64,000 bases of DNA from Oceanococcus sp. HetDA_MAG_MS8 (GCA_019192445.1 JAHCMK010000001.1:62001-126000); one strand, 5' to 3'; shown: positions 16,404 through 59,221, counted from the first letter of the stretch. Numbers and translations: made by a program. The notes: a model not told the origin generated them from the letters alone.

Positions 16404-16410
16404 CACGGGT

Positions 16411-23101: not shown

Positions 23102-23103
23102 GC

Positions 23104-24735: not shown

Positions 24736-24752
24736 AAGGCCGCTCCCCGCGC

Positions 24753-24780
24753 TGTATACCATTGCGGGTTTTGCCACCAA
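24753..24780 (-). promoter_or_regulatory. Candidate sigma-70 promoter of the sulP-dabA-mrp operon
   Basis: On the minus strand TTGGTG (24775-24780) and TATACA (24753-24758) are separated by 16 bases, about 18-40 bases upstream of the chosen sulP start. The leader would be very short. Confidence 0.35.
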
Positions 24781-34959: not shown

Positions 34960-36720
34960 CTAAAAATCGAAGAGCGTCGGTATCTGGGCGCGCATGGCAG
35001 CAATAGGCGATGCGCCTCCATTCTCTGCGGCCCGGGCATGGGCTTCCATCAAGGCCTCGCGCTGCCAGGAGTCCGCCGGCGGCATGAGCTGGCCTTCATT
35101 GCGGGTGCCCAGATACCGCTCGAAATCCAGCACTTCACGGATCTCGCTACGGTCCTGAATATTGGCCAGTACCGTGGCTTCGTCAGGGCCGGACATGAAG
35201 TTGAGGTCGGCTGATGGGTTACCCCGATGGCAGGCAAAGCAATACTCGGCGTAGGGCTTCAAGACAGAATCGGCAGCTAATTCCAAGGGGGGCTCGCCTT
35301 GCAAAATCGGCGGCGAAAACGCATGGCCATCGTCAAAGACATACGCCTGCGGCTCTGCTCCCAAGGCAGCACTCAATGCTTGTATTAGCGTTTCTCGCAC
35401 TACGGGCTGGGCCGCAAAGAGCTCATCCGGCAGCTGTGCTGCGGCCTGTTGCAACTTGGCGGCGTCGTAGTTGGCCAGCTGCTCCAGTCGCGCCCAGTCG
35501 GCGGGGCTGAACAGTTGGGCCAGGGCATAAGCGCCGTCGAGACTAGTCGCGTCAACCCACTCTTTGGGAGGGCGCTGGCTTAAGGGGTCCAGCTCCGGCG
35601 GGAGTGGGGGCAGACGGTCGAAGGCGGCCAATTTATCCAGGCTTTGTTCGCGGGCGGGTGCCGGGGCGAAGATCGCTCGCAGCCGCACCCAGAGGCTGTC
35701 GGAATACAGCTCCTGCTCCAGCGGATTGCGATTGCCCAGGTCGTTGTTGATGTGGGCAATGCCTTTATTGGGCCATACCGCAGCTTGCGCCTGGGTCAGC
35801 GCCTGAGCTGTGCTGCTATCGGGGCTGAGGCTGGCGGGGTTCAGCCCATATTGCAGCGCGGCCGATAGCAGAGCCCGGCGGCAGGCCTGGCCTTGCTCGC
35901 CGCAGCCGTCCAGCCAGATGCGCTGGGTGACCATCAGTACGTTGCCCATATTGGTGAGGTCGTCAAAGCGCTGCGCATCATCCAGTGAACGCATCACCGG
36001 AGCTTGCTGATAATGCGTGCTTTGCAACGCCTCCTGCAGCTTGGCGCGAATATCCGGGTTGGCGTTGGTTTCCCGCCAGGGACGCACCGGGAAGATGGGG
36101 CTGCCGCCCGCATGGCAGGTGGTACAGATAGCACGCTTGGCATAGACGATGCGCGGTATGCAGCCCTGGCAGTAATCCTCCACCAACTGAAACTCAAAGC
36201 GGCCGGCAGCGCTGTTGTAGCTCAGCACCTCGATTTCGTTGGCCTCTTCGACGAAGCCCAAAAAGAGCCGGCCGCGCAGTCGAGCCGGTAACACGGCTCC
36301 GGCCGGTGGATCAGTATCGGCGGCATACACAACGCGCGGGGCGCCGAAATGGGCATGGCCTTTGAGCAAAGAGCGCCCATCGGGAATCAGCATTTGCTCC
36401 GGTTCAGCCTCGGCGCCGGCGGCCTCCTGCATGGCCGCAACCAATTTGGGAAAGGGGTAGGGCAAGCTGCCATGCCGGGCGATCAGTTGATCAAAAAGCG
36501 AGCGTGTGCCCTCCGGGGGTAGATCGTCCCGGCTCAGGGCTGCGGTGAGTGGATGGCCCTGGGAATCACTCTGGGCATCACTCTGGCGCTGCTCGGCCAG
36601 GGCTTCAATACCCGGACTAGCCTGCGGTTCTGGCCCGCAGGCACTGAGTACACCGAGCATCAATACGGCCGGCCCTAAGCAGAGCCGGCCATAGCCTTGT
36701 GCCAAACCTGCCCGCATCAC
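34960..36720 (-). CDS. Lipoprotein with two CXXCH haem motifs
   Basis: 586 residues. Lipobox VLSAC then Gly-Pro, pointing to the outer membrane. Two c-haem motifs: CTTCH near residue 200, in a domain with extra paired cysteines (YCQGC before it, CGEQGQAC after it), and CFACH near residue 495, in a C-terminal cytochrome-like domain ending LGTRNEGQLMPP, where the Met may be the axial ligand. The start is GTG at 36720, in a GTGA overlap with the preceding cistron, or the ATG three bases on. No close named family recognised; periplasm-facing electron transfer is inferred. Confidence 0.7.
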   Translation of the reverse strand: MMRAGLAQGYGRLCLGPAVLMLGVLSACGPEPQASPGIEALAEQRQSDAQSDSQGHPLTAALSRDDLPPEGTRSLFDQLIARHGSLPYPFPKLVAAMQEAAGAEAEPEQMLIPDGRSLLKGHAHFGAPRVVYAADTDPPAGAVLPARLRGRLFLGFVEEANEIEVLSYNSAAGRFEFQLVEDYCQGCIPRIVYAKRAICTTCHAGGSPIFPVRPWRETNANPDIRAKLQEALQSTHYQQAPVMRSLDDAQRFDDLTNMGNVLMVTQRIWLDGCGEQGQACRRALLSAALQYGLNPASLSPDSSTAQALTQAQAAVWPNKGIAHINNDLGNRNPLEQELYSDSLWVRLRAIFAPAPAREQSLDKLAAFDRLPPLPPELDPLSQRPPKEWVDATSLDGAYALAQLFSPADWARLEQLANYDAAKLQQAAAQLPDELFAAQPVVRETLIQALSAALGAEPQAYVFDDGHAFSPPILQGEPPLELAADSVLKPYAEYCFACHRGNPSADLNFMSGPDEATVLANIQDRSEIREVLDFERYLGTRNEGQLMPPADSWQREALMEAHARAAENGGASPIAAMRAQIPTLFDF

Positions 36721-39122
36721 ATCAGTTTCAGGAACTCGGTCAGCGCATCTTTGTCGCTGCGGCTGAGGTCGATACCGAATTGGTGCCCTTTGTTTTCAAC
36801 CAGGTCATCACACTTCTGATACAGAGGTGCGTGCGGGTCGGAGCTGGCGAAATAGGCCACCGGAGTGCCCTTGCGCACCGGTAGTTTGATCAGACCTTGG
36901 CCATCTTCACGCGGCGCCAGCCAGATGTCCTCGGTGGTTCCGGTGATTTTCGGGCTGCGGTGTGGTTCGCGGCTGGGGTCGTCAGACATCAGCAATTCAT
37001 CCATGGCGAGGTGGTATTGCTGTATACGTCCGCGAACGCTGGTATCGATGCCTCCGTCTTCGGTATAGGTGAGTTCCCCGATGGCATTGTTGTGCAAGAA
37101 GGGCGCATGAGACCACACCGACAACAGGGAAATATTGCGGTAATAGCCGGGCCCGCCAGGGCCGATGTCCTGGGTGCCAAAGGCGCGCCCACCTAATCCC
37201 GGAACCATGCGGTTAAAGCGTCGCGGTACCGAACCAGGGGAGGGGCGGTCTTGATAAGTTTCCGAGGCGAACTCTTCCCAGATATGGCCTTTGTTGTGGT
37301 TGTCATGTCGAGCCCGGCAGGAGTTGGTGCCAATCTCGTTAAAGGGCTCGGGGTTGTCATTGCCCAGCCAGTCCTGGCCAAACATGCCATCGCGGACGAA
37401 CTGCGCCGGACGCAAGCGGCCCTGGTCGTCTTTCTGCATGTATTTGCGCTGGAAGGCTTCAGAGTTGCGTACGGCCGCCGGGAATTCGTACTCCCAGAAG
37501 GCTTCGGCGCCAAATACATGGCCTTCGTAGAATTTCTCCAGCGCGTCTTTGTCGCCGACGATGGTTTCTGGCGGTACCCGGGTGGAGTGGCATTGGGCAC
37601 ATTCGCGGGCGAAAACTTTACGGCCCTGTGGGACTTGCTCTAGGTCGATGAATTCGCGCCCTGGGGTGCCGTCTACGTCCGTGGCATTGAGCAGGTAGAA
37701 GGGACCACCGGCGAGCAGGTACATGGCCATGTCTGGCATTTTGGCATCGGCATAGTTCCAGGCATCGCAGTCACGCGCACATTGCTCGATGCGCATGGGC
37801 TTTTGCGCTGCGTCCTCGCCGAAGAAGGTGCCCGGAACCGGGAAGTTGGGTACCCAGCATTCTTCGGTGCACATGCCGATGTTCACGTACACGCGGAGTA
37901 GCGCCAGGCGCTCACCCACGGAGTCTTCGCCGCCCTTGAGCACATGTAGCGTGGGTGCAGTACTCATTTCCCCCGTAATCGGGTGCTTCATCTCATGTTG
38001 AAACACCCGCTTGTTCATGAAGTCGGTGATGTTGTTCTGGGTGCCGGGGTTGTGCATGAAGTCGTTGGGGTTCAACGAGGTATCTACGGTGCCTGGGCGC
38101 GCCGCAGCCACCGCCTGCACCGAGAAGTGGTCACGCGGCACCGCCGACAGGAAGGCCGCCAGCGGCTGGTTCACATACTGGTTGCCAATATGCCCGGTGA
38201 TGTTTTCCCACTCCGGCTCATTGGGGTTGGCTGGCGGGTTGGTAGGGTCGAAGGCCACATGGCATTGCACGCAGGGATGACCAATGGCGAAGCGCTGCTG
38301 CTTTTGCATTTCACCCTCGGTGTAGGGAGTGCTGCGCGGGTCGAAGACCACCTCTCCATCCGGCCCATACTGTGGCTCTTTGAAGTACTTGCGATAGCCC
38401 AGCACGCCCGTGGATTTGGGGTCTTCGCACTTATCCAGCCAGAAGGTGGAGGCATCGCCTTGCTCACAATCGGGGTCGTTGATCAGCCCCCATTTGCTGA
38501 AGCGGTAAGGCCGATGCTTGGTATGCATCCACTCGGCGTAGTGCATGTTCTCTTCGCCGATGGTGCGGGCCAGGTGAATCTCGTTGAGATCCTGGTTGCC
38601 AAAGGTGCCCTTAAACCAGGTATCGCGGCCGCGGCGCACCATGGCGCGCATGGCGGCGGCCTGCACCGGGTCGGTTTTCTCCAGCTCGGTAAACATGCTG
38701 GCCACAATGCGGCAGCCCTCGGCGTCGTAGCCGGTGGGCTGTGGCTGGTCGCAGGGCGGAGGTGGGTCCTGCGGAATGGGCACAATATCCCAGGTGATCG
38801 GCCCGCCGCGCTCATGGGTGGCGGGGCTAGTACCGTCTTTCCAAACCTTGCGTGCGGCGAGGGTGTCGTAGAAGTGCTTTTCGAACCAGGCCGCGTGTTC
38901 CTGATATTGTGGGCTGCCTTCGTATACCCCAGTGATACGACCGAGCTCGACAAGGTCCTGGACGGTGACGCTGCGCAAGGTACGGCTAAAGCCCGCATTC
39001 TCCGCCTGTGCTCCCGTGTCGGCATGGCTGTCCGCCCATATGGGTTGGGCAGCGGCGCATAGAACGATGCCGAGCAGCGCGGCTGCTGGCCGCGACGGTA
39101 GTCGGAAATTTTGTGTGATCAT
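36717..39122 (-). CDS. Large exported di-haem c-type cytochrome
   Basis: 801 residues with a Sec signal ending QPIWADS. Haem motifs CVQCH (about residue 285) and CAQCH (about residue 510) plus several other cysteines. LLSVWSHAPFLHNNAIGEL in the second domain is the hallmark of di-haem cytochrome c peroxidase and RoxA/RoxB rubber-oxygenase relatives. At 801 residues it is longer than either. The frame reaches 39200, but GGGAGAG precedes the ATG at 39122 and the signal starts there. First gene of the four-gene cytochrome operon. Whether it is a peroxidase, an oxygenase or only an electron carrier cannot be decided from sequence. Confidence 0.75.
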   Translation of the reverse strand: MITQNFRLPSRPAAALLGIVLCAAAQPIWADSHADTGAQAENAGFSRTLRSVTVQDLVELGRITGVYEGSPQYQEHAAWFEKHFYDTLAARKVWKDGTSPATHERGGPITWDIVPIPQDPPPPCDQPQPTGYDAEGCRIVASMFTELEKTDPVQAAAMRAMVRRGRDTWFKGTFGNQDLNEIHLARTIGEENMHYAEWMHTKHRPYRFSKWGLINDPDCEQGDASTFWLDKCEDPKSTGVLGYRKYFKEPQYGPDGEVVFDPRSTPYTEGEMQKQQRFAIGHPCVQCHVAFDPTNPPANPNEPEWENITGHIGNQYVNQPLAAFLSAVPRDHFSVQAVAAARPGTVDTSLNPNDFMHNPGTQNNITDFMNKRVFQHEMKHPITGEMSTAPTLHVLKGGEDSVGERLALLRVYVNIGMCTEECWVPNFPVPGTFFGEDAAQKPMRIEQCARDCDAWNYADAKMPDMAMYLLAGGPFYLLNATDVDGTPGREFIDLEQVPQGRKVFARECAQCHSTRVPPETIVGDKDALEKFYEGHVFGAEAFWEYEFPAAVRNSEAFQRKYMQKDDQGRLRPAQFVRDGMFGQDWLGNDNPEPFNEIGTNSCRARHDNHNKGHIWEEFASETYQDRPSPGSVPRRFNRMVPGLGGRAFGTQDIGPGGPGYYRNISLLSVWSHAPFLHNNAIGELTYTEDGGIDTSVRGRIQQYHLAMDELLMSDDPSREPHRSPKITGTTEDIWLAPREDGQGLIKLPVRKGTPVAYFASSDPHAPLYQKCDDLVENKGHQFGIDLSRSDKDALTEFLKLM

Positions 39123-40909: not shown

Positions 40910-40940
40910 AAAAACGCCCCCTCACGGAGGACACTGGGCG
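40910..40940 (-). terminator. Rho-independent terminator of the motor operon
   Basis: On the minus strand CGCCC pairs with GGGCG, with an inner CCTC/GAGG stem around a CGT loop, followed by five T residues. It lies eight bases after the stop of the AgmX/TonB-like gene. Confidence 0.75.
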
Positions 40941-40948
40941 CAATGCTC

Positions 40949-41959
40949 TTAGGAGGGCGAGAAGAAGATCGGGTAATTAATGGTAATTTCCGGAACGTCT
41001 TTGGCCCCGAAATTAATCAACCGTACCCGCGCGAGCACTTTGCGTTCCAGATCTCCGTCACGCAGCTCCGAGGACACTACGGACACCGCGCTGACTGCGC
41101 CCGATGGTGCGATTGTGAGTTTGATCACCAACTTGCCCTGCAGAGCAGGGTTGCGACGAAGGGCGCGGTTGTAGATGGCGTAAATACCACCTTTGTTGCG
41201 GTCCATGATGAGCTGGATTTCCTCCAGCGAACGCCCCTGCGTGCGTTGGTCACCACCGAAGCCGGAGCGTTCCCGATTTTCGCCGAGTCCACCGCCCGCC
41301 GCTTCAATACGCTGGCCGCTGACACTACGCTGCCGCGGGCCCAACTCCGTGCCCTGTGACTGCGCACGTTGAATATCTCCAACGGAGGCCCCGCTGCCTC
41401 CACTCACATTGCCGCTGACGACATTGGCCGCGGCGATCTCATCGGCAGTGCTCGAGCGCTGCGCCTGGCGTAAGGGACGATTACGTGTTGCGCTGACAAC
41501 ATCTTCGGTCTGTAGGCTCTGTAATTGATTCAGAGCGCTGGCCAACTCGCGTTGGACCTTTTCCCGGGCCTGGGCACGACGATCAACCGGCGGCGGAGTG
41601 GGTGCCGGTGTGCTGATGGGCTCAGGTTCGACAGTTTCCACGGGCTCTGGGTCTGGTTCTGGTACCGGCTCAGGATCCGTAGTTTCCTCGGCTTCGGGCG
41701 TGGGCTCTGGTTCTGGCACCGGTGCGAGTGTCGGCTCCGGCGTGTCGGCCTGCTTCGCCGCTTGTTCGAGTAATAATGTGGCATAGCGATCAGATAGATC
41801 TTCGCCACCACCTTCTTCTAAACCGCTTAATTGGTATAGCGGAACCAAGATGCCCAAGACCACAAAGGGGATGGCAACAACGCCAAGAATGCGTTTGAAG
41901 CGGTCATCATCACTTTGCATTTCGGCCCAGGCACTCTGGGCATAAACATTGGCCGTCAT
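40949..41959 (-). CDS. AgmX/PglI C-terminal-domain protein (TonB-like energy-transducing arm)
   Basis: 336 residues. Short cytoplasmic N-terminus, one membrane helix (about residues 24-46), then a long Pro/Glu-rich periplasmic linker (residues 70-130), a Gln/Arg-rich stretch, and a C-terminal domain of about 90 residues: IYAIYNRALRRNPALQGKLV, then KLTIAPSGAVSAVSVVSSEL. This is the AgmX/PglI-type C-terminal domain seen in myxobacterial gliding proteins and related to TonB/TolA arms. It would carry force from the ExbB/ExbD motor across the periplasm. ATGA overlap with the ExbD-like gene upstream; terminator follows. Confidence 0.85.
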   Translation of the reverse strand: MTANVYAQSAWAEMQSDDDRFKRILGVVAIPFVVLGILVPLYQLSGLEEGGGEDLSDRYATLLLEQAAKQADTPEPTLAPVPEPEPTPEAEETTDPEPVPEPDPEPVETVEPEPISTPAPTPPPVDRRAQAREKVQRELASALNQLQSLQTEDVVSATRNRPLRQAQRSSTADEIAAANVVSGNVSGGSGASVGDIQRAQSQGTELGPRQRSVSGQRIEAAGGGLGENRERSGFGGDQRTQGRSLEEIQLIMDRNKGGIYAIYNRALRRNPALQGKLVIKLTIAPSGAVSAVSVVSSELRDGDLERKVLARVRLINFGAKDVPEITINYPIFFSPS

Positions 41960-42486
41960 GAGCTACTCAATTGGACGGTGCTTTGCTCGCGACTGAGCAC
42001 GGCAAATGAGACTTTTCCGTAATTGGCAGTCACGCAGCTGCGCATGATGCGTGTGATCAAAGCATAGGGCAGGGCTTTATCTGCCATTACAGTCACTTCG
42101 CCGCGGTCATCCTCCAACTCGGAATCAGCCTCGGGGATGATTTTCTTAGCTTGGTCACCCAAAGCCAAACTCAGTGCCGGCAAGTCGCTGGTATCTGCTT
42201 CCAAGGCGGCGCTGGTTGCCATGACCCGCTTGCCGTTCACCAGAATATCTTCAGGAGTCACCATCACCAAGACGGTCTCGCGCGCGCGTTCTTCGGCATT
42301 GGATTCCGGGAGCGCCAAAGCGTCGGTGCTTGGCAGTACCTCGACAGCTGAGGATTGCACCAATAAGAAGAAGACCAAGATGGTGAAGATATCCATCAAG
42401 GAGACGAGGTTCATGGACCCGACTTTACGCCCGCGCACGCTGCGTTTTTGCATGCGCTGACCGCGACGACTATGCGCGCTAATCAT
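41956..42486 (-). CDS. ExbD/TolR family protein (Asp-containing)
   Basis: 176 residues. Basic N-terminus, one membrane helix and a periplasmic domain. The helix reads NLVSLMDIFTILVFFLLV, and Asp32 is at the place of the essential proton-pathway Asp of ExbD/TolR. DRGEVTVMADKALPYALI in the periplasmic part matches the family. Overlaps the second ExbD-like gene and the AgmX-like gene by four bases each. Confidence 0.88.
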   Translation of the reverse strand: MISAHSRRGQRMQKRSVRGRKVGSMNLVSLMDIFTILVFFLLVQSSAVEVLPSTDALALPESNAEERARETVLVMVTPEDILVNGKRVMATSAALEADTSDLPALSLALGDQAKKIIPEADSELEDDRGEVTVMADKALPYALITRIMRSCVTANYGKVSFAVLSREQSTVQLSSS

Positions 42487-43016
42487 GGCTGAGACTCCGT
42501 CGATGCAATTTCGCCCAGGGAAATCTCGGGATACAACGCAACTTCAGTGCGTGTGCCCTGTGCGTCATCGACCTTGGTGCTGCGAACGGCATCCATGACT
42601 TGGATCAGAATGTCGTAGTTAATGGCCGGTTGTAGCAATACCACAGCAGCTTCTTTGCTCTTATCTTCGTCGCTGGCATTGGCTTTGACGTTGCGCAAGG
42701 CCACATTCAGTGCGTTGAAGTCGTATTCCCCAGCGTCGCTACGTGGCCATTCCACTTCCTGCCCGTCGGGTTTGCGTAAAGCCAGTCCGGATTCCCGAAC
42801 CAGAACAGTCGGGGGTGGAAGAGGGGGCTCATCCTGTTCTGCTGGCGGTTCACTGGTGTCTGGTGACGGCAGTGTGACCTCGAGGATGGCCAAACGCGAA
42901 AACACGGCGGTAATGAGCAGAAACGGCACGAGAATCACCATCAGATTCAAAAAAGCCGTGATATTCAGCTCACCGGGATCACCTTTATCGCGGTGACGAT
43001 GTCGACGTTGGAGCAT
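42483..43016 (-). CDS. ExbD/TolR family protein lacking the membrane Asp
   Basis: 177 residues, same plan as its neighbour: basic N-terminus, one helix ITAFLNLMVILVPFLLI, Pro-rich linker, periplasmic domain with PAINYDILIQVMDAVRS. At the position aligned with Asp32 of the neighbour stands Asn24, so this copy should not carry protons itself. With two ExbD-like chains per motor expected from ExbB5-ExbD2 structures, a mixed dimer is possible (inference). 22 bases after ExbB, four-base overlap with the next gene. Confidence 0.85.
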   Translation of the reverse strand: MLQRRHRHRDKGDPGELNITAFLNLMVILVPFLLITAVFSRLAILEVTLPSPDTSEPPAEQDEPPLPPPTVLVRESGLALRKPDGQEVEWPRSDAGEYDFNALNVALRNVKANASDEDKSKEAAVVLLQPAINYDILIQVMDAVRSTKVDDAQGTRTEVALYPEISLGEIASTESQP

Positions 43017-43038
43017 GGGCGCGGACCAGCGACTCGGC

Positions 43039-43680
43039 TTAAGCGCCGGTGTCGTGGCGGGCAGTGAGATTCAGGAAACGCACCGTGGTCATTTCCAGAG
43101 CATCAACAACTTCTGTGGTGCGTGCTTGGATGTAAGCATGGGCCAACAACAAGGGGATGGCGCACATCAAGCCAAATGCCGTGGTGTTCATGGCCACCGA
43201 GATCGATGCGGAGAGCAGGTTCGCTTTCTCGGCGGGGTTCACATTCGCTACGGCGGTAAAGCCCTGGATCAAGCCAATAATGGTGCCGAGTAGGCCAAGC
43301 AGGGTGGCGATATTGGCGAACACGAAGATGAAGGGGGTGCGGCGTTCCATACGGGGAATCACCTCCATCATGGCCTCTTCCATGGCCATTTCCACATCTT
43401 GGCGCTCTGCTTGAGCGGCGCGTCGTTCCAAACCGAAACCAAGCACAGCAGCCAGGGGAGCGTGGGAGCTGTCTACGGCATCGCGAGCGGCTTTGATTTG
43501 ATTGGTGGTGATGTCATGCGCAACTTCAGCCCAAAGCTGACGGTTGCCTTTTTCAGCGCGCCCCAAGAACAACAAGCGCTCGATGCTCATGGCTAAACCG
43601 AGCACCAAGATGACCACGATGGGGTACATGAACAGGCCGCCACTTTGAAAGAAACGGACAGCAATATCTACAAAATCCAT
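43039..43680 (-). CDS. MotA/TolQ/ExbB proton channel family protein
   Basis: 213 residues, three membrane helices. The C-terminal part ANIATLLGLLGTIIGLIQGF and the last helix NTTAFGLMCAIPLLLAHAYI are the MotA/TolQ/ExbB signature with its small and Thr residues. The first helix is YPIVVILVLGLAMSIERLLF. A GTG at 43689 also opens the frame; I chose the ATG at 43680. Stator ring of the motor, with the two ExbD-like proteins just downstream. Confidence 0.9.
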   Translation of the reverse strand: MDFVDIAVRFFQSGGLFMYPIVVILVLGLAMSIERLLFLGRAEKGNRQLWAEVAHDITTNQIKAARDAVDSSHAPLAAVLGFGLERRAAQAERQDVEMAMEEAMMEVIPRMERRTPFIFVFANIATLLGLLGTIIGLIQGFTAVANVNPAEKANLLSASISVAMNTTAFGLMCAIPLLLAHAYIQARTTEVVDALEMTTVRFLNLTARHDTGA

Positions 43681-43697
43681 AGGACTCACTTACTCAA

Positions 43698-44000
43698 TCA
43701 GGGTCGCGTGGCCATCGCAGCTGCGAGGGCGTTGTAATACTCGATTTGCCGAGCAAAGACTTCCGGGTCCAGCAATTCCGGCTGTACATCTAGCTGTCGC
43801 GCTGGGCGATCAAACTCCGCTTCGGGGTTTGCGCTACGCCATGGCGAGATATACAGGCCGATAGGCAATTCTTGGTCCCCGGTGATACGGGTTTCCTGCA
43901 GGGTGGCATCTGCATTGCCCTGCTGGGCGTGAGCTGCAAATGATGCAACGCACAACGCCAATGTTACTGTGCTTTGACGCATTCTGCTGGGCATCTTCAT
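43698..44000 (-). CDS. Small exported protein of the motor operon
   Basis: About 100 residues. From the ATG at 44000 it has a Sec signal (hydrophobic run ending SFAAHAQ) and a mature part of about 75 residues with no recognised domain, ending YYNALAAAMATRP. AAGGAGC lies in front of the start, which overlaps the upstream TPR gene stop as ATGA, so the longer reading frame up to 44129 is not used. Periplasmic; role unknown. Confidence 0.65.
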   Translation of the reverse strand: MKMPSRMRQSTVTLALCVASFAAHAQQGNADATLQETRITGDQELPIGLYISPWRSANPEAEFDRPARQLDVQPELLDPEVFARQIEYYNALAAAMATRP

Positions 44001-44587
44001 GCTCCTTGATCCATTCGTCGTTGCAGGTCTGCAATCCAACCGCGGACCCGAGGATCCGCTTCGGGCTCTGGGGTGTACTGCAAATAGTTTTGGTAGGCGG
44101 TTAGGGCTGCTGACCATTCTCCCCGCCATATCTCAAGCAAAATGCCAAGGTTGAGCCAAGCGGGCGCGTATTCACCGTCGTTGGCCAGTGCAGTCTCATA
44201 GGCCTGCTGAGCGGCATCGATATCGTTGGCTTCGCGGGCCAATACACCTTGTAGATTCCAAGCAGGGGCCAGTGTGGCATCTCGTTGCAGGGCTTGTTGC
44301 AGATAATCACTACAGGCGCTGTAGTCCCCGCGCGCATGTGCGAGCAGGGCGAGGTTCAGCCAGGGCGTGGCATAGCGAGGATAGCTTTCTGCGAGTTGGG
44401 TAAACAAAGCGGCAGCACTATCGCGGTCGTCGGCTTGCACGGCGGCAACGGCTTGGTTATGCAATTGCTGCTGAGGGCTGGCAGGAGCCGCGGTACCACC
44501 GCCCCCGCTACTGGCGCAGCCCCCCAACACCAGCAAGCTCAGCAGCAACGCAGCCTTGGTTTGGCGGCCCCAATCAACGCAGTTCAT
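43997..44587 (-). CDS. TPR-repeat lipoprotein
   Basis: 196 residues. Lipobox LVLGGC then Ala-Ser, pointing to the outer membrane; a Gly/Ser linker; then about three tetratricopeptide repeats (ATPWLNLALLAHARGDYSAC, APAWNLQGVLAREANDIDAA, APAWLNLGILLEIWRGEWSA). Protein-protein interaction scaffold. Overlaps both neighbours, so it belongs to the motor operon. Confidence 0.82.
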   Translation of the reverse strand: MNCVDWGRQTKAALLLSLLVLGGCASSGGGGTAAPASPQQQLHNQAVAAVQADDRDSAAALFTQLAESYPRYATPWLNLALLAHARGDYSACSDYLQQALQRDATLAPAWNLQGVLAREANDIDAAQQAYETALANDGEYAPAWLNLGILLEIWRGEWSAALTAYQNYLQYTPEPEADPRVRGWIADLQRRMDQGA

Positions 44588-47498
44588 CGTAAACCTCCTC
44601 GACGAGTTCGGTTTTGCCGAAGCGCGCCGGCAAAATTGTGCGGAGCTGAGCCAAGCTGCGCTGGATCCAGGTGTTGTCTATACCTTCAGCCAAGCGCGCA
44701 GCGTTAGCCTCATGCGCCTCTGCGGACAATTCCTCCAAGGGGAAGGCCTGCTCCTCAAGTAAGAGTGTGTACTGCTCGGCTTCGAGCATATCCAGTCCTG
44801 CCGGGGGGGGCAGGTCCATGAGCTCGCGGGCCAATTGGTAATACATTTCTCCAATTCTGAAGGTTGCCTGGGTGCTGCTATCGACAAAGCCGTAATCCAG
44901 AACGCCGCGATAGGCTCTCAAGGCCCGATCCATGGCCGCCTTTTTGCGGCTGAGTGTGCGGTCCAATGGCTGAGCCAGGCGCAGACGATTGAAGGATTGG
45001 AACTGATCCTCAGCCTTCTCCAGACTGGCATTCGCTGCGAGGAGGCGGACGGTATCGGCGCGTGGGCCGGGCTGTATTGTGCTGGCCAGAGAGATTGCGG
45101 CGTCCAGCCAATATCCGCGGTCGGGATTGCCCACTGCGGTCAGCTCCAGCATGCGCTCCAGGGCTTTGACTTGGCGCGAACCATTACTACTGCCGTGTTC
45201 GCGGAAATAGCGCCCATAAGTACTGCGCGCCGCGTCATTCACACTGTTCTTGTCGTACAGGGTTGCGGCCTGCCAGAGCGCATCCTTGCGTACGGTGGCG
45301 GCCAAAGTCGTGGTCGCTGCAATGCGCTCCAACTCGCGCGCTGCAGCCACTTCATCGCCAGTCTCAAGGTAGGCGGCCGCTAGGCGGCGCGTGGCCTCGA
45401 GTTGGAGCCGGTGTTGTGGATAGGCCTCACGAAACGCCAGTAGGGCCGTCACCGCTTGATCCCAGGCCTTGTCCTGAAGGTATGCGGCGGCGGCGTCGAA
45501 ATCGGCATCGGCGGCCAGTGCTGATCCGGGCCAAGCCTGCTTAACCCGCTGAAAGGTTGCGGCCGCGAGTTGTAAATCGCCAGCTTCGCGGGCAGCCACA
45601 GCTTGTTTGTAAATGCTGTTGGCCTGCGCTTCCATCAAGGTGACGCGGCCTGGTGCTTCTGGGGGGAGCTCCGCCAGCCAGTCAGCAAAGGCTTGCTCGG
45701 CTTCGGCATAACGCTGCGCGTCGTAGTGGGCGTAAGCGATGATGCGCCAGTTGGTCAAACGCAGTTCGCTACTTGCCCGTGGTTCTAAGCTGAGCACACC
45801 ACGCGCAATATTCATCGCTTCGTCGGCGCGATCAGCCTGGGCTAGCTCTTCAGCACTGCGTGTGAGCACCGCAGCGACTTGGGGATGCTCAGGAAAACGC
45901 GCTTGCAGATCCAAGCTGGCTTGCACTAAGTCATCCAAGCGCAGGTTGCGCTCTTCCACCGCGGCCTGCTCTAGCTGGCTGGTGCGCGCTAGTACCAAAG
46001 CGTAGGCGCTTTCCTCAGCACGTGGGTGAGTGGGGTGATTGCGTACGATGTAATCGAACTGTTGCGCGGCGGCGGCGACGGCATTGGCCGCGAAGAGGCT
46101 ATCCGCCCAGTTGTAGCGAATTTCCGTGCGCTCAGGCGCATCAGGGAAATCCTGTACATAGGCTGCGAAATAATCAGCAGCCCGGCGGTAATCGCTGATG
46201 GCTGCAGCGCCAGAGCCGTTTTCTGCCAGCGCCTGATAGTGGCGACCAAGCTCGCGCGTGGTGTCAACCAAAACCGCGTACGCCTCCGCAGAGGATTCTG
46301 GCGTGTTTGCCGTCCAAAAGGGTTGATTCAGCGCGTAGGTTGCTACATAGCGTTCTTTGGCAATGATGACCTGTTGATCGAAGCCAGCCTTGTCGTAGAG
46401 GTCAACAACTTTGGCTGCGTACACCGGTGCCAAGGGGTGGTTAGGGCTGCGCTCGGCTAGGCCATAAAACGCCGCGGCTGCGTCGTTAATTCGCTCCTTG
46501 TCGATGAACAGTTCCGCCAAGTTGGCGTAGAGCACCGGTTCATAAGAGCGTGGCTCACGTTCACCCAAAAACTCGGTGAGGGCAGGGCCACCACCAATTT
46601 GGCTAAAGGCCAAAGCCACCACACGCAGGACGTCCCGGACCAATTCGCGTTGGGCCCTGGGAATCACCTCCAGAGTCGCCTCGAGGTTCTCTACAGCACC
46701 AACGGGAAGTTCACGGTCCAGAATGCTGACGAAGACTTCCAAAGACTCGCGGTAGCGATCCTGCTTGTAAAGCGACCAACCGTACTTGTACTGCGCCTGC
46801 TCGAAGAAGCTAGATCCGGCCGGCGACTGCATCACAGTGCGGTACTCCTCCCCAGCCTCTTCGTATTGCCGCGTCTTGAACAGCAGCTCGGCACGGCGGA
46901 AGTGCGCATCCAGATTCAGCCTGGAGCCTGGGAAATCGCGGGTCAGCTCGCCAAGAGTCTTGATCGCAAGCTCGAGTTCGCCCAGGTTTTGATAGGCCCG
47001 CGCTAACTGATAGAGGATACGGTCATTGTCCGGCGCGTTGGGGCGAGCATCTAAGAGGCCGTTGTAAAGGGACACGGCCTCCGACTGGCTCACCGCGCCA
47101 GAGGCTTCTAGCGTGGGATCGAGCTCACTGGCTTCCACTTGCAGGTCCGCCAGACGGCGCTGAGTTTCAAAGCGCAGCTGTTGATCGTTCGGAGCCAGCT
47201 CCAAAATTGCCCGGTATTGCTTCAATGCTTCAGTGACGCCGCGGTCAGCCTGTGGCGCATCAGCATCAAGCTCCGCGGGACGCTCTGGTGTGTCCAGGCT
47301 CAATTCCGGAAGGGCCTGTTCGGCTTCTTCGCGCGCGCTGACGACCTGTTCCTGCTGCGCCAGCAGATCACCGAGGCTAGGCGCCTCTTGTCGCATCAGG
47401 GTGTCGAGGTTTTCCTGGTCGGCAGCGTCGTATTGCGCGGCACAGCTGGCCAGCAAAAGGGCGGCGCAGGGCGCCCAGGTAGATATATGTCGACTCAT
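44574..47498 (-). CDS. Large TPR-repeat lipoprotein
   Basis: 974 residues. Lipobox LLLASC with Cys19; then a long array of tetratricopeptide repeats nearly to the end, with typical pieces LARAYQNLGELELAIKTLGE and YKYGWSLYKQDRYRESLEVF in a BamD/YfiO-like or GltE/AgmU-like style. Outer-membrane periplasmic scaffold. Large TPR proteins of this kind accompany ExbB/ExbD/AgmX genes in myxobacterial gliding loci. Starts in TGATG overlap with the upstream TPR gene. Confidence 0.82.
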   Translation of the reverse strand: MSRHISTWAPCAALLLASCAAQYDAADQENLDTLMRQEAPSLGDLLAQQEQVVSAREEAEQALPELSLDTPERPAELDADAPQADRGVTEALKQYRAILELAPNDQQLRFETQRRLADLQVEASELDPTLEASGAVSQSEAVSLYNGLLDARPNAPDNDRILYQLARAYQNLGELELAIKTLGELTRDFPGSRLNLDAHFRRAELLFKTRQYEEAGEEYRTVMQSPAGSSFFEQAQYKYGWSLYKQDRYRESLEVFVSILDRELPVGAVENLEATLEVIPRAQRELVRDVLRVVALAFSQIGGGPALTEFLGEREPRSYEPVLYANLAELFIDKERINDAAAAFYGLAERSPNHPLAPVYAAKVVDLYDKAGFDQQVIIAKERYVATYALNQPFWTANTPESSAEAYAVLVDTTRELGRHYQALAENGSGAAAISDYRRAADYFAAYVQDFPDAPERTEIRYNWADSLFAANAVAAAAQQFDYIVRNHPTHPRAEESAYALVLARTSQLEQAAVEERNLRLDDLVQASLDLQARFPEHPQVAAVLTRSAEELAQADRADEAMNIARGVLSLEPRASSELRLTNWRIIAYAHYDAQRYAEAEQAFADWLAELPPEAPGRVTLMEAQANSIYKQAVAAREAGDLQLAAATFQRVKQAWPGSALAADADFDAAAAYLQDKAWDQAVTALLAFREAYPQHRLQLEATRRLAAAYLETGDEVAAARELERIAATTTLAATVRKDALWQAATLYDKNSVNDAARSTYGRYFREHGSSNGSRQVKALERMLELTAVGNPDRGYWLDAAISLASTIQPGPRADTVRLLAANASLEKAEDQFQSFNRLRLAQPLDRTLSRKKAAMDRALRAYRGVLDYGFVDSSTQATFRIGEMYYQLARELMDLPPPAGLDMLEAEQYTLLLEEQAFPLEELSAEAHEANAARLAEGIDNTWIQRSLAQLRTILPARFGKTELVEEVYDELR

Positions 47499-49270
47499 CA
47501 GCGGTCTTCGCTATCGTTCGGGGCTTGGTCATACAACCGAGCCAAGGCAAAGCGGGCTTCAATTTGGTATTTGCGAATCGCCTTTTGTTGCTCGAGCAGG
47601 GTATTCAAGGCGATATCCTCTAGAAGTTGGCGCTGCGCAGGGAGGGCGGCCTCGACATCAGCAAGCAATGTTTGCGCCTCGTTCATCAGGGGCCGCGCTT
47701 CGGCCGAGACCGAGCCGGGTTCAACGCTGAGGTCGCGACTCAGGTCCAGCTGCCGTTTGGGATCGAAGCGGTATGTCCACTCCAGCAGCCCTTCTAAGGT
47801 TTCATTGCGCGGGAAGCGGTTCAGCTCCGTGGCAATCTGTAGTTGGGGTTCCAAGCCTGGGAATAAGGGTTCCCGATAACGCTGGCGCTCGCGGCGAATA
47901 AGCTCGGCCGCATCGCCGGCCGCCAACACGGCCTGCGGGCCACTTTCCAGGCTGCGAATATCGGCCTGTAGCCGCCGCGATAGCTGCCGCAGGTCTCGGT
48001 AGTTTTTCAGCGCCTCTTGGAAGAGCGTGGTTCCCAGTGTATTGGCCAGGTACCAAGTTTCATCGGCATCCGCAAGTTCGGTTGCCCGCCATTTCCAGCC
48101 TGAGTACTCATTGGGCCGGGAGCGAATCAGCGTCTCAAACATCCGCCCATTGCGGGTGGCTTCGATGGCAGATTCCAAGCGCTTAGATGCCAGCTCCAGT
48201 CGCGCTAGGCCCACGTTGTAGTAACGACGCGCGGCATCGTACTCCCCAAGCTGAGTCAGCGCCCACGGCAGCGCGACTTCAACTTCGAGGACCGCCGTGC
48301 GGCGGACATCACGCTGAGCCAATGTTTGCCAGGCACTGATCGCCCGGCGGTAACGCAGCGTGCCATCGTTCTTGTTTTCGCCGGTTTGCAGCATGCCTAG
48401 GCGGCGGCGCAGGTCTTCATCAACCTTGCCCGGGCGAAGGATGGTGCCGAGCACGCCGCCCACCGTATCTTGCGTGTCTTGCTCGCGCAGGCGAACACGG
48501 TTCGGGGCTACAGCACTTAGCTCAGCCCAGCCCAAGGCCAGCAGGGCCTCCTCTGAGAAGGGGCCGTCCACGCGAATGCGCTGTAGCACGGGCAGGGCTG
48601 CGGTCCCATTAGCTTCGCGCAAATAGTCATAAGCCAATGTGAGGTTGGCTTGATCACGCAGAGCATGTTCCAGGGGGTCGTTCGCAATCTCTCGGCCAAT
48701 GTCGTCGAGCTTGCTGCGAGCTGAGCGAATGTCTCCAGCCGCAAACAGCGCCATGGCTAGATTGTATTTGCCGAAATTCGTGCGGCCTGCAACGCGGCGG
48801 TCGCTGAGCTTTGTGATGCTGTCTTGTAAGCGGCGCTGGCGCCCGGCAACCATGGCGCCGAGTAGCTCGCGCTCGTAGAAGCTGTAATTCCCCAGATCTT
48901 CTTCCATGGCTGCGAGCGTGGCCACGGCGGCATCGTCATAACCGCGTTCAAAGGCATAGCGTGCCAACTTGAGATACAGCTCGGACCGCTCTTCGCGGCT
49001 GAGTTCGTTTTGCGCAAGTAAACCCAAGAAGCGCTGCTCGGCCGCGTTGTAAAGCCCGTAGTTGAGGAGCTCATGAGCCGTGAACAAGGCGTGGTCAGTG
49101 CTGCCGATGCTTTGGGTCAACAACTCCAAAGCAGCGTCAAGGTGATTGCCGACCGTGTGCTGATAGAGGGCCTGGTTATGCCGGAAATCGCCTCGTCCGG
49201 GCTCATAGGCAAAGGTTGTGGTGGCTGCGATGCTCAGCGCACCGGCGAAGCAGAGTCGTAATGAGCGCAT
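47498..49270 (-). CDS. Exported TPR-like protein
   Basis: 590 residues. Sec signal ending TTTFAYEPG, no lipobox. Helical repeats resembling TPRs in the first 300 residues (ALYQHTVGNHLDAALELLTQ, ELYLKLARYAFERGYDDAAV), then longer coiled or helical parts with DIRSLESGPQ and QRQLLEDIALNTLLEQQKA. Likely periplasmic scaffold. TGATG overlaps at both ends couple its translation to its neighbours. Confidence 0.78.
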   Translation of the reverse strand: MRSLRLCFAGALSIAATTTFAYEPGRGDFRHNQALYQHTVGNHLDAALELLTQSIGSTDHALFTAHELLNYGLYNAAEQRFLGLLAQNELSREERSELYLKLARYAFERGYDDAAVATLAAMEEDLGNYSFYERELLGAMVAGRQRRLQDSITKLSDRRVAGRTNFGKYNLAMALFAAGDIRSARSKLDDIGREIANDPLEHALRDQANLTLAYDYLREANGTAALPVLQRIRVDGPFSEEALLALGWAELSAVAPNRVRLREQDTQDTVGGVLGTILRPGKVDEDLRRRLGMLQTGENKNDGTLRYRRAISAWQTLAQRDVRRTAVLEVEVALPWALTQLGEYDAARRYYNVGLARLELASKRLESAIEATRNGRMFETLIRSRPNEYSGWKWRATELADADETWYLANTLGTTLFQEALKNYRDLRQLSRRLQADIRSLESGPQAVLAAGDAAELIRRERQRYREPLFPGLEPQLQIATELNRFPRNETLEGLLEWTYRFDPKRQLDLSRDLSVEPGSVSAEARPLMNEAQTLLADVEAALPAQRQLLEDIALNTLLEQQKAIRKYQIEARFALARLYDQAPNDSEDR

Positions 49271-49812
49271 CAGCGAGACTCCCGTTCCAAAGCGTCCAGA
49301 CCCACGCCGGAGCCGCCGGGCACGTCCTTGACCCGCAACTCCAAGGTTAGAGGTTGACGCGATTTCGTCAGGGTCATCGTGGCGCGATGATCGACCGGCT
49401 CGCCCTCAGCATTGCGGCCCTGTAAGTACACATCCAAAGCAAAGCGGCCAGGGCTCACATTTCCGTGGAACAGAGGTGCGACGCCGCCGATACGCATGGC
49501 ATAAACCTGTTGGTCGTCAAACTCTTGACGCAGTAGGCGTTGACCCGCAGAGCTGAGTTCCAGGCTCTCTAAACTGAACCGACGCGCGGGACTGGTAAGG
49601 AAAATATCCAGACGCTGTTCGGGTGGATAGAAGTACTGGTTCTTATGATCCTGCACGGCTGCCAGAATATTGACGGCGCGCGTCTTAAGGTTTTGTACGG
49701 CGCTGTCGTTACGGCGCAACTCACGCAATAAATCGTCGGCATCGCGGGCAGGCTCCGCAGAAAGTCCAGGAGCAAGCCCGAAGGCAAGTAGTAAACAAGC
49801 AAGTCTTCGCAT
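49270..49812 (-). CDS. Small exported protein, first gene of motor operon
   Basis: About 180 residues from the ATG at 49812, where a Sec signal begins (LACLLLAFGLAPGLSAEP). The frame could extend to 49875, but that part does not look like a signal. Mature part: a helix rich in Arg/Asp, then beta-type sequence (YVYLQ-like strands; RFALDVYLQGRNAEGEPVDH). No family recognised. It is 75 bases downstream of the LysM transglycosylase gene, so a promoter may lie between. Confidence 0.65.
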   Translation of the reverse strand: MRRLACLLLAFGLAPGLSAEPARDADDLLRELRRNDSAVQNLKTRAVNILAAVQDHKNQYFYPPEQRLDIFLTSPARRFSLESLELSSAGQRLLRQEFDDQQVYAMRIGGVAPLFHGNVSPGRFALDVYLQGRNAEGEPVDHRATMTLTKSRQPLTLELRVKDVPGGSGVGLDALERESR

Positions 49813-49887: not shown

Positions 49888-51330
49888 TTAGCAGCGCGGC
49901 TCACTTTCGAGCAGATCTGAGCTGCACAAGGCGCCTTCGCGAGGCGCAAAGACGATGAGCAGGTCATTAGCATGGAGTTTGGGATGGCCTAATTGGTTCC
50001 AGCGGCGCAATTCCCCGACACTCACCTGGTAGTTACTCGCGATGATGTCTAATGAATCTTGGGGTTGAACGCGGTGGAGTAGCGGCTCTCGCCCCGCGGG
50101 TGGAGCAATACGCAAGCGCTGTCCGGCATGCAGGGGCTCACCCGGACGCAAATTATTCCAACGGCGCAAATTAGCAACATCTTGGCCTTGGCGTCTGGAG
50201 ACGTCCCATAAGGTATCGCCACTGCGCACCCAGTACCATTCCCGCGATTGCAGCTTACGTGGCTGTATACGCCGACGCTCGCGAACGGCCGCCAGCGTCG
50301 CCGGCGGCAGAGCTTGGCGACCGACTGGAATCCACAGCGCTTGCCCGACATAGATCTGGTTGTCGCTGAGGTCGTTAATATCGCGCAGAAGCGCAACGCT
50401 ACTATCCCAGCGTTCCGCAAGCCGACCGAGCGAATCCCCAGCTTGCACTTCCCAGGCCAGCCACTGCGTGCGTTGCGCAGTAGGGATGTTGGCCAAAATT
50501 TGTTGGGCACCGTCGTGAATACGCCGCGGTAACAACACCTGACCGGGGCTGTTAGGCGGCATGCTCCAGCGCGACCAGTGAGGGTTGTAAGCGTAAAGTT
50601 CGGTGAGGCTCCAGCCCAGCCATTCGCTCATCGCATCCAAGTCCACAGGCCCAGGAGTGAGCACAGCGACGGGCGCGCGTTCAGGGGCAATCCACGGCAG
50701 GCGATCCATTGTGGCCAGTGCCCGGGCCAGTCCTAGCAAGCGCGGAACGTAGTCGCGACTTTCGCTGGGTAGCGGTAGATTCCAGTAGGCGGTTGATCGC
50801 CCGCTACGGCGGGCCTGGCGCAGCAGGCGGGCGAGGCGTGTCTGCCCGGTGTTGTAGGCGGCCAGTGTGAGCGGCCAGCTGCCAAAACGTTGATGCAGGG
50901 AATCTAAGTAATTCAAAGCCGCTGCTGTGGCCTTGAGCGGATGCTGGCGTTGATCTTCCCAGATTGTATGCTCCAGGCCATGCTCGCCAGCAGCGTCGCG
51001 TCGAAACTGCCACAGGCCCACTGCCGCTCGGTCGGAGCGCGCTTGGGTCTCAAGCTGCGATTCGATGACCGGCAGTAAAGCCAGCTCCGCAGGCCAACCG
51101 CGCTCTATAACGGCTTCGATGACCGGGAATAACCAGTGGCCACGCTCCTCAAATATGACGCGCAGTTGGGGCGCACGCGTGCGCCAATGGCCCTCCCAGC
51201 GCTCAATATCTGAGTGTTGGAGGTGATCCAGCCCGTAGTGGGCGAAGAGGCGTGGCCACAGCTCTTCGGCGATTGCAGCATGACTTAGCAGGCCGAGTAG
51301 CAACCCGACCAAAACTCTGCTGATTGCCAT
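49888..51330 (-). CDS. MltD-like lytic transglycosylase with LysM repeats
   Basis: 480 residues from the ATG at 51330. Sec signal ending HAAIAEE; family 1D SLT domain with catalytic Glu90 in ALLPVIESQL and then AVGLWQFRRDA and TLAAYNTGQTRL; three LysM modules (roughly 300-345, 380-425, 430-475) with WYWVRSGDTLWDVSRRQGQD and VQPQDSLDIIASNYQVSVGE. It cleaves peptidoglycan at the outer-membrane side. A TAATG overlap with gloB shows coupling. A cell-wall lytic enzyme next to a trans-envelope motor operon is suggestive, but gloB-mltD is also a common neighbourhood by itself. Confidence 0.92.
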   Translation of the reverse strand: MAISRVLVGLLLGLLSHAAIAEELWPRLFAHYGLDHLQHSDIERWEGHWRTRAPQLRVIFEERGHWLFPVIEAVIERGWPAELALLPVIESQLETQARSDRAAVGLWQFRRDAAGEHGLEHTIWEDQRQHPLKATAAALNYLDSLHQRFGSWPLTLAAYNTGQTRLARLLRQARRSGRSTAYWNLPLPSESRDYVPRLLGLARALATMDRLPWIAPERAPVAVLTPGPVDLDAMSEWLGWSLTELYAYNPHWSRWSMPPNSPGQVLLPRRIHDGAQQILANIPTAQRTQWLAWEVQAGDSLGRLAERWDSSVALLRDINDLSDNQIYVGQALWIPVGRQALPPATLAAVRERRRIQPRKLQSREWYWVRSGDTLWDVSRRQGQDVANLRRWNNLRPGEPLHAGQRLRIAPPAGREPLLHRVQPQDSLDIIASNYQVSVGELRRWNQLGHPKLHANDLLIVFAPREGALCSSDLLESEPRC

Positions 51331-54076: not shown

Positions 54077-55771
54077 TTAAAGCAGCAAGGCGCCTACGAC
54101 CGCAGCCAACAAGAGGAAGGTTGCGGCCATCACACCGACCGCTGGTGTGCCGCCCATCAAGCCTTTGTCGTTAGTGAGGTTACGCAGCTCGCGTAAGGCC
54201 AGGGCGGCGTAGTCGGCGCACCATGCGCCGGCTCGCTGACCCCAGCTGCTGAAGATGTTGTCCAGCCGCTGCGTGAGTTGCGGTGCCCAGCGCCGGTAAA
54301 GCACGTCGGAGTCCAGGTGCAATGCTCGGATTTCCGCAGGATATCGCCCGCTGCGGTAGAGCCACACAAAGGCCAGTCCAGCAAACAGCAGCAGCTGCAT
54401 CTGAGTGACCACATGGTCGGCGGTGTAGGGGATGAATTTGTAGTCTTGCAAAGGCAGCAGGGCGTATAGCAAGGCTGGGGCAATGCCCACCACAATACAT
54501 GCCAAGGCGGTGATGCCCATGGCAAGGAGCATAGGCCACGGCGCTTCCTGGACGCGGTGGCCTCCGTCATGCGCAAAGAAGGCAAAAAATGGCACTTTAA
54601 TTCCTGAGTGATCAAGCACCCCTGCCGACGCAAACAGCAATATCAGCCAAACCAGCGGATGGCCCTCGTAGACGGCGGCCGCCAAAATCATGGATTTGGA
54701 CACAAAACCCGAGAGCAGGGGCAGCGCCGAAATGGACATGGCGCCAATGATGCAAAAACGGGCGGTCCAGGGCATGCTGGAGTACAGGCCGCCCAGGTCC
54801 GTCGCTCGTGTGGTGCCCACGCGGTACAACACCGCGCCCATACTCATGAACAGCAAGGACTTGTAGAGGATGTGGCAAAAGGCGTGTGCGGCTGCCCCAT
54901 CCAAGGCCAGCGGTGTGCCGATGCCGACGCCGACCACCATAAACCCCAGCTGGTTGTTCAAGCTGTAGGCCAACACCCGGCGTAGATCGTTCTCCAAAAC
55001 CGCGAAGAAAATGGGGAACAAGGTCATCACGGCCCCAATGGGGATCAGGATGTCCGTGCCCGCATAGCTACGGATCAGTGCATAGATAGCCAGCTTGGTG
55101 GTGAAGGTGGACAGCAGCACCGTGCCGGCTGGCCCCGATCGTGGATAAGCGTCTTGTACCCAGTTATGCAGTAAAGGAAAGGCTGCCTTGATGCCAAAGG
55201 CCAGCAAGATCAGTAGCCCGCCAGGGCTGTCCAGGCCAAGGTGGTTGAAGCCCAAGTCCAATCCAGCCTGATGCCTGGCCAGCAAGCCAAAGAGTAGCAG
55301 TACGCCGGAAAGGATTTGGATGGCGAAATAGCGAATTAAGGCGCTTATCGACAGCCCATAGTCGGGGTGACGGTGCACTAACAAGGGCAACGACGCGAGT
55401 GCGGTGAACTCCCAGAACATGAACAGGCTGGGCAGGTCGGCGGCGAGGGTGGCGCCCACTGCAGAGCCGCAATAGGCCAAGCCGGCGGAGAATACCCGGC
55501 GATTATTCTCGGGCCAGGCGTAGAGCAGGCCCAGATTTCCGGCGATGAGAAAAATGGTGCCGAATATCAGCGCTAGTTTGTCGGCTCTATACCAGTCCCA
55601 GTTCAAAGCTCCTAGTTGCAAGGCGGTCGGGCCGTCAAGGCTCCACAGAGCGGCCAAGGCAAGAAGTGGGGCGGCGACCGCGAGCAGCCGGCCGAGGGCT
55701 AAGGGCAGCAGCCAAAGCATGCCGGCTGCCAGGTACAGCAACACGGCCGGGTGAAGTAGCCCCTCAATCAC
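54077..55771 (-). CDS. Third antiporter-like (MrpD/NuoL family) subunit, last gene of Mrp operon 2
   Basis: 564 residues, about 14 helices plus a C-terminal extension with a last helix (GVMAATFLLLAAVVGALLL). Proton-transporter motif with Glu121 (SLFMFWEFTALASLP) and Lys195 (AFGIKAAFPLLHNWVQDAYP), Lys226 in TTKLAIYALIR. The C-terminal extension contains RWAPQLTQRLDNIFSSWG, an amphipathic piece reminiscent of the NuoL lateral arm. Overlaps the small membrane protein gene by eight bases. Confidence 0.85.
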   Translation of the reverse strand: MIEGLLHPAVLLYLAAGMLWLLPLALGRLLAVAAPLLALAALWSLDGPTALQLGALNWDWYRADKLALIFGTIFLIAGNLGLLYAWPENNRRVFSAGLAYCGSAVGATLAADLPSLFMFWEFTALASLPLLVHRHPDYGLSISALIRYFAIQILSGVLLLFGLLARHQAGLDLGFNHLGLDSPGGLLILLAFGIKAAFPLLHNWVQDAYPRSGPAGTVLLSTFTTKLAIYALIRSYAGTDILIPIGAVMTLFPIFFAVLENDLRRVLAYSLNNQLGFMVVGVGIGTPLALDGAAAHAFCHILYKSLLFMSMGAVLYRVGTTRATDLGGLYSSMPWTARFCIIGAMSISALPLLSGFVSKSMILAAAVYEGHPLVWLILLFASAGVLDHSGIKVPFFAFFAHDGGHRVQEAPWPMLLAMGITALACIVVGIAPALLYALLPLQDYKFIPYTADHVVTQMQLLLFAGLAFVWLYRSGRYPAEIRALHLDSDVLYRRWAPQLTQRLDNIFSSWGQRAGAWCADYAALALRELRNLTNDKGLMGGTPAVGVMAATFLLLAAVVGALLL

Positions 55772-56000
55772 CGTAGTAGTCCTCTGAGCGTTTCAGCAAG
55801 GGGCGCAGCGCCTTGGCCCCGAGCACAATCACGCAATAGGCTCCAAAGCCCACCACGGCATAAAAGCCAGGCACTCCGGAAAAAGAAAACTCCACATGTC
55901 GATGGATGGCGAACTCGGCCAAGACGCTCAGCACCGCCAGTCCGAGCAGGACGCGGATCGCCAGCCGAATACCAGGGGAGGCGGGAGAGGGAGCGCTCAT
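55764..56000 (-). CDS. 78-residue membrane protein of Mrp operon 2
   Basis: From the ATG at 56000, which overlaps the previous stop as ATGA, there are two membrane helices (about residues 12-30 and 44-62) and a charged C-terminus RSEDYYGD. VPGFYAVVGFGAYCVIVLGA precedes the second charged segment. The longer frame to 56087 is antisense shadow and not used. I recall similar short proteins ending in EDYYD within other Mrp-like clusters, without a name. Probably an accessory subunit. Confidence 0.75.
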   Translation of the reverse strand: MSAPSPASPGIRLAIRVLLGLAVLSVLAEFAIHRHVEFSFSGVPGFYAVVGFGAYCVIVLGAKALRPLLKRSEDYYGD

Positions 56001-58872: not shown

Positions 58873-59221
58873 CGAATGGCCCATCCCGGATTTCGTCCTC
58901 CTCAATACTGCCCAGTTCTTCTTGCACCCTGACCACCAAGGCCAAGCCCACCGACAGCGTCGCTACTCCGACCACGATGGCGGTCAGAATCAGCACATGT
59001 GGTAGCGGGTGGCTGTAGCCGCTACCGCCCTCTTGCAGAATAGGGACACCGCCTGGAAAGAGCTTGCCCAGGGTGAGGTAGAACACGAAGATGGCCACCT
59101 GAAAAACCGACAAGCCCAGCAGTTTCTTCACCAGATTGTCCTGGGCGATGACCAAATACAGGCCGGTCACCAACACCACACCGAGCAGGGCATAAAGGCC
59201 TTGTGATGCCAGCGCTGTCAT
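58865..59221 (-). CDS. mrpC: Mrp antiporter subunit C, operon 2
   Basis: 118 residues, three helices, NLVKKLLGLSVFQVAIFVFY and SHPLPHVLILTAIVVGVATL. Paralogue of the gene at 17862-18248. Four-base overlap with mrpB. Confidence 0.93.
   Translation of the reverse strand: MTALASQGLYALLGVVLVTGLYLVIAQDNLVKKLLGLSVFQVAIFVFYLTLGKLFPGGVPILQEGGSGYSHPLPHVLILTAIVVGVATLSVGLALVVRVQEELGSIEEDEIRDGPFDE

Follow-up and report, generated by a model that had tools for sequence, protein, structure and literature searches.

An Agl/Glt-type core operon of Oceanococcus and the linkage of its relatives with flavin and haem redox genes

What may a gammaproteobacterium do with a set of genes whose relatives serve gliding and spore-coat assembly in Myxococcus? 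The question is raised by a nine-gene operon at positions 40949-49812 (minus strand) of a 64,000-nucleotide stretch of the genome of Oceanococcus sp. HetDA_MAG_MS8, referred to here as the window. The original prediction, made from the sequence alone, saw in it a proton-driven trans-envelope machine of Agl/Glt kinship, perhaps for surface motility. By comparing the operon with its relatives across bacterial genomes, we found that its gene order is nearly invariant and that, outside the clade of the window organism, it commonly stands directly downstream of redox genes. This suggests that moving or energising outer-membrane redox and barrel proteins is the most likely role of the core, a reading for which we see about as much ground for belief as for doubt.

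The operon and its published relatives

The window bears nine open reading frames, each overlapping its neighbour or separated from it by no more than about 22 bp. Independent gene prediction gave the same nine genes, with the start of the first gene at the ATG at 49812, and the family matches agreed with this, bearing out the predicted run of overlapping or nearly touching genes. They are transcribed in the order b, C, D, E, x, R, Q, S, G, followed by a probable terminator (TPR, tetratricopeptide repeat):

gene b, 49270..49812, minus strand: exported protein of 180 residues; N-terminal helix and transthyretin/Ig-like beta-sandwich; separate from C here
gene C, 47498..49270, minus strand: GltC-type exported TPR superhelix, 590 residues; assigned from its place in the operon, its export and its fold rather than from a hidden Markov model match
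gene D, 44574..47498, minus strand: GltD-type TPR lipoprotein, 974 residues; lipobox LASC, Cys19
gene E, 43997..44587, minus strand: GltE-type TPR lipoprotein, 196 residues; lipobox LGGC, Cys24
gene x, 43698..43998, minus strand: small exported protein of about 100 residues without a known domain; position conserved
gene R, 43039..43689, minus strand: AglR/TolQ/ExbB-type channel subunit; Thr118, Thr136 and Thr170 conserved
gene Q, 42483..43016, minus strand: first ExbD-type subunit; Asn24 in place of the membrane Asp
gene S, 41956..42486, minus strand: second ExbD-type subunit; membrane Asp32 kept
gene G, 40949..41959, minus strand: arm with one N-terminal membrane helix, a Pro/Glu-rich linker and an AgmX/PglI (TonB-like) C-terminal domain (245-333)
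probable intrinsic terminator, about 40914..40941, minus strand: hairpin followed by U5

The motor and arm genes matched their families well above the cut-offs: R matched MotA_ExbB (PF01618; 90.4 bits, cut-off 22.9), Q and S matched ExbD (PF02472; 48.5 and 57.7 bits, cut-off 25.4), and the tail of G matched the AgmX/PglI model NF033768 (68.6 bits, cut-off 40). TPRs were found in both D and E by Pfam/NCBIfam. The top NCBIfam match of E was the GltE model NF033758, at 40.6 bits below its equivalog cut-off of 225, and G scored below the cut-offs of the M. xanthus GltG and GltJ equivalogs (43.8 of 650 and 41.1 of 450 bits). The original description of C as an exported TPR protein stood at the level of fold and not of repeat matches: C showed no Pfam TPR above cut-off, and neither it nor its relatives matched the NCBIfam GltC model NF033756, but AlphaFold models the protein as a superhelix of TPR-like form, and it is exported and encoded at the place expected for GltC. 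The structural model of b (mean predicted local distance difference test score, pLDDT, 89.5) comprises the helix and the sandwich, for which a structure search (Foldseek, VIA) returned generic beta-sandwich matches only (the PepT2 extracellular domain, transthyretin; Z about 8-11); searches of PDB sequences with G and b gave nothing useful. As to the single terminator claimed for the operon end, the hairpin with its U5 is there, but its fold (-13.3 kcal/mol, z -1.4) is plausible rather than strong.

Judged by its sequence, the operon is a member of the gammaproteobacterial "core complex" of Luciano et al. 2011 (PMC3169522), and the machine itself is not new. This filing rests on domain families, gene position and fold, the GltE, GltG and GltJ equivalog models having matched far below cut-off. 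According to the available text of that paper, GltC, GltD, GltE and GltG together with AglR, Q and S form one gammaproteobacterial cluster, with one additional gene that has no myxobacterial homologue, and the function of the complex is given as unknown. The window operon shares with this core (Group B) AglR, two AglQ/S-type ExbDs, the GltD/E/G types, a putative GltC, the single operon and the presence of an additional gene; it differs in that b and x make two conserved additional genes, where the text available mentions one. If b is that additional gene, it is absent from Myxococcales. With the M. xanthus Agl-Glt gliding and Agl-Nfs spore-coat machines the operon has in common the motor type, the AgmX/PglI arm tail, the TPR proteins and a motor shared between modules. 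In contrast to them, no FHA domain was found in G by Pfam/NCBIfam, and none of the Group A genes (gltA, B, F, H, I, J, K) was seen in the operon, the genome as a whole not having been searched for each. The predicted Agl/Glt kinship is thus supported both by the family matches and by the published set.

The genome collection contains at least 550 relatives of gene D (GltD), which is present in 88 of 369 gammaproteobacterial genomes drawn evenly from the class (the class sample). The order b-C-D-E-x-R-Q-S-G is kept in nearly all of about 80 named and 60 class-sample loci; the arrangement lies far beyond chance, since the same order recurs in dozens of families. Several genomes encode b and C as one fused protein with b at the N-terminal end (for which reason the b profile was built from domain envelopes), and by the Rosetta-stone argument this suggests joint action of the two. 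Sets of b-C-D-E-x without motor genes occur in some genomes, solitary b-C genes in others, and such sets recall Myxococcus, where one Agl motor serves both the Glt and the Nfs modules (PMC3858216). Two motorless sets (L054:4490-15034 and L051:3295-15011, b+C-D-E-x) lie beside DUF3034, globin-like, FMN_bind, PepSY_TM and OmpA-cupredoxin genes. The window's own genome has a solitary GltC-like gene on contig C4 (L039:9854-19370), in a row with YCF48-like, DUF1302, DUF1329 and MMPL/RND genes; L045 and L056 have similar layouts.

Redox genes beside the core

Outside the window's own clade, the core commonly belongs to a larger operon, of which it makes up the downstream half and redox genes the upstream one, and two layouts recur. 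One runs from an HZS-alpha-like cytochrome through a small cytochrome-like lipoprotein, an SH3/barrel protein, an OMP barrel, a redoxin, DUF4266, DUF3570 and in some cases ApbE to the core; the other consists of a LamG cytochrome, a Tat-signal protein, ApbE and the core. The immediate same-strand upstream gene encodes a redoxin, ApbE, DUF3570 or a Tat-signal protein at 44 of 63 named loci, as against 2 of 260 background genes, and at 24 of 58 class-sample loci, as against 1 of 225; certain genomes contribute to both sets of loci, and the named loci served to build the neighbour profiles. The gaps between redox gene and core are mostly -4 to +76 bp, with frequent 4-bp overlaps. A redoxin near the class II copies was left out of this evidence because it sits in a housekeeping cluster: the genes there, taken for a type II secretion-like cluster, proved to be cutA-dsbD-redoxin-aroQ-accB-accC-prmA.

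The co-occurrence data point the same way. Among the 369 genomes, 73 have both GltD and DUF3570, 15 GltD without DUF3570, 22 DUF3570 without GltD and 259 neither (odds ratio 57, p = 8e-42); at the family level the figure is 39 of 48 (odds ratio 27), and the control family DUF1302 gave an odds ratio with GltD of 3.8. The two genes lie within 22 kb of each other in 40 genomes. GltC relatives recur beside barrels of several families (DUF3570, OMP_b-brl, DUF3034, DUF1302). Flavinylation of DUF3570 by ApbE has been proven (Meheust et al. 2021, PMC8238504, the sole paper naming DUF3570 in the literature searched, that is, open-licence PMC papers). The DUF3570/DUF4266/ApbE/thioredoxin cassette of the flavin systems described there is the one that in many genomes precedes the core; the available main text does not name ExbD, TPR or gliding genes among its partners.

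In the window's own genome there is one core operon and one intact redoxin-ApbE-DUF3570-DUF4266 cassette, which lies on another contig (L161). Two SGAS motifs for flavinylation are present in the cassette, as are a thioredoxin site, WCGPC, and, in DUF4266, a CGC at the C-terminus. None of the cassette genes was met next to the window's core, and for this copy the redox/barrel role is what we infer from its relatives: the core would act in trans on the unlinked cassette.

Several observations weigh against a redox role. The window's core stands among housekeeping genes (mltD, gloB, rnhA, rarA) instead of redox genes, and about six relatives within Nevskiales have the core without DUF3570, which indicates that the partnership is not obligatory. 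DUF3570 is lacking in 15 of the 88 GltD-positive class-sample genomes, only 11 of 25 core-linked DUF3570 proteins have the exact [ST]GA[ST] motif, and the co-occurrence is partly phylogenetic. Furthermore, giant DUF11/SdrD_B surface-protein genes adjoin some core copies in place of redox genes, so redox is not the sole theme and the cargo is probably variable.

Such a giant gene lies directly 3' of G at L176, L199, L207, L209, L211 and L212. Genomes G206 and G176 bear a second core copy which, unlike the copy adjoining DUF11/SdrD_B, has redox neighbours.

As for the surroundings of the operon in the window, rarA lies downstream, and mltD-like, gloB-like, rnhA and dnaQ-like genes lie upstream. 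The nearest of them is outside the conserved module and is not found upstream of the core in genomes beyond the window organism's order:

SLT and LysM gene (MltD-like), 49888..51330, minus strand: upstream neighbour

Elsewhere in the window, two large proteins of 586 and 801 residues without a Pfam match are encoded at 34960-39122; the longer has several CxxCH motifs and resembles an exported c-type cytochrome. At 20249-24780, DabA (an inorganic carbon transporter subunit) lies beside a sulfate-permease-family protein and, with Proton_antipo_M genes downstream (14382-16406), forms a DAB-like or Mrp-like ion/bicarbonate cluster. A second Proton_antipo_M run (54077-55771 and 57433-58905, within 54077-60504), accompanied by small membrane reading frames, resembles an Mrp-type antiporter operon.

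Motor residues and a proposed path of force

At each of Thr118, Thr136 and Thr170 of R, no more than one of 126 loci departs from the conserved residue, and the membrane Asp of S is present in 121 of 121. The aligned position of Q (P0007, equated with AglQ from gene order) has Asn in 88 of 128 loci, the window included; 39 loci have Asp and one has Ser. At least five changes at this site fall on the GltD tree (FastTree, midpoint-rooted, the rooting being arbitrary). In Myxococcus, the engineered D28N exchange in AglQ abolishes proton conduction (PMC3858216). The natural one-sided Asp/Asn pair points to a heterodimeric axle, and the residue pattern is compatible with a Q-S heterodimer whose one proton site lies on S.

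Taken together with the redox neighbours, this allows us to propose how the machine may work. By analogy, R would form a pentamer surrounding the Q-S axle; protons would pass Asp32 of S along with the threonines conserved in R and so turn the axle within R. The motor would act on the arm G, whose TonB-like tail would cross the periplasm and hand the force to the lipoproteins D and E at the outer membrane, and also to the periplasmic pair b-C, which may dock on an outer-membrane beta-barrel. Experiments in Myxococcus have shown that GltC binds the outer-membrane barrels GltA/GltB (PMC4488436). In gammaproteobacteria, the barrel or cargo would mainly be outer-membrane or surface redox proteins, namely flavinylated DUF3570 with DUF4266, ApbE, a thioredoxin-like protein and c-type cytochromes. 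The motor may position, assemble or open these redox proteins; in the window organism, the cassette encoded elsewhere would be served in trans.

Alternative roles and the meaning of the linkage

The core could be a surface gliding machine as in Myxococcus, given its kinship to GltC/D/E/G and AglRQS, its AgmX/PglI tail and the large adhesin-like DUF11 proteins beside some copies. Luciano et al., however, in the text available, judged the core alone insufficient for motility and unlikely to drive it, most carriers not being known to glide (PMC3169522), and the window's core has no adjoining barrel or adhesin gene. The partners that recur are barrels of the outer membrane and redox proteins of the flavin, thiol and haem kinds; the motility suggested originally is therefore not supported, and a gliding role is unlikely, indeed the most improbable of the roles considered. 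Some form of outer-membrane transport, suggested as well, is a possible role. Hardly better is the prospect that the core energises a TonB-dependent receptor. Like TonB-ExbB-ExbD and TolQRA, it has a proton-driven MotA/ExbB-type motor with a force-transmitting arm, and G bears a weak similarity to TonB_C, but the scores stay below cut-off (PF03544, 17.7 of 24.6; TIGR01352, 26.3 of 27.1 bits). The two unlike ExbDs, the TPR lipoproteins and the AgmX/PglI tail also set it apart, and we know of no TonB system with two unlike ExbDs and TPR lipoproteins among its parts. Furthermore, the own genome has several other MotA/ExbB loci, and no receptor-sized family recurs among the neighbours identified in more than 100 loci. 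TonB-type nutrient uptake was rejected on these grounds, which, together with the published core complex, supports the original view of a proton-driven trans-envelope machine distinct from plain TonB uptake.

The redox linkage might instead be a regulatory convenience, with the two systems employed in the same circumstances but not in physical contact. Core and cassette are indeed separate loci in the window's order, and some genomes carry the core or DUF3570 alone; still, overlapping stop and start codons, one tight gene order in many families and the strength of the co-occurrence make this improbable, if less so than the preceding roles. A more serious candidate, though we consider it unlikely as well, is a general envelope or lipid-trafficking machine for outer-membrane upkeep or transport of hydrophobic or lipid cargo, with redox as one of several uses. 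In its favour, motorless solitary b-C homologues sit with MMPL/RND, LolA-like DUF1329, outer-membrane barrel DUF1302 and YCF48-like genes, also in the own genome, or with an FtsX-type permease, and the window's copy is kept vertically beside mltD and rarA within its order. These solitary loci, however, lack D, E and the motor, and DUF1302 co-occurs weakly with GltD.

The near-invariant order with the b-C fusion, the redox linkage and co-occurrence, and the one-sided ExbD pair are new here. The redox operon linkage, the fusions, the motorless versions and the Asp/Asn split do not appear in the available text of Luciano et al., and no earlier report of the redox linkage or the one-sided pair was met in the literature searched. 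A 5:2-motor review describes it as unknown whether AglQ pairs with AglS or each of them with itself (PMC9389320), a question on which the natural Asp/Asn split bears. We tentatively extend the redox/barrel role to gammaproteobacteria at large, while doubting somewhat that it will hold so widely: the core may be a machine, powered by protons, that is dedicated to flavin/haem electron-transfer proteins of the outer membrane and the surface, with an asymmetric Q-S axle whose proton site is on S only, and gliding may be a later myxobacterial use. Since its description in 2011 the core complex has had no established task, and its linkage with flavinylated DUF3570, DUF4266, ApbE, thioredoxin-like proteins and cytochromes offers a concrete and testable one, which might join two systems that are both unexplained.

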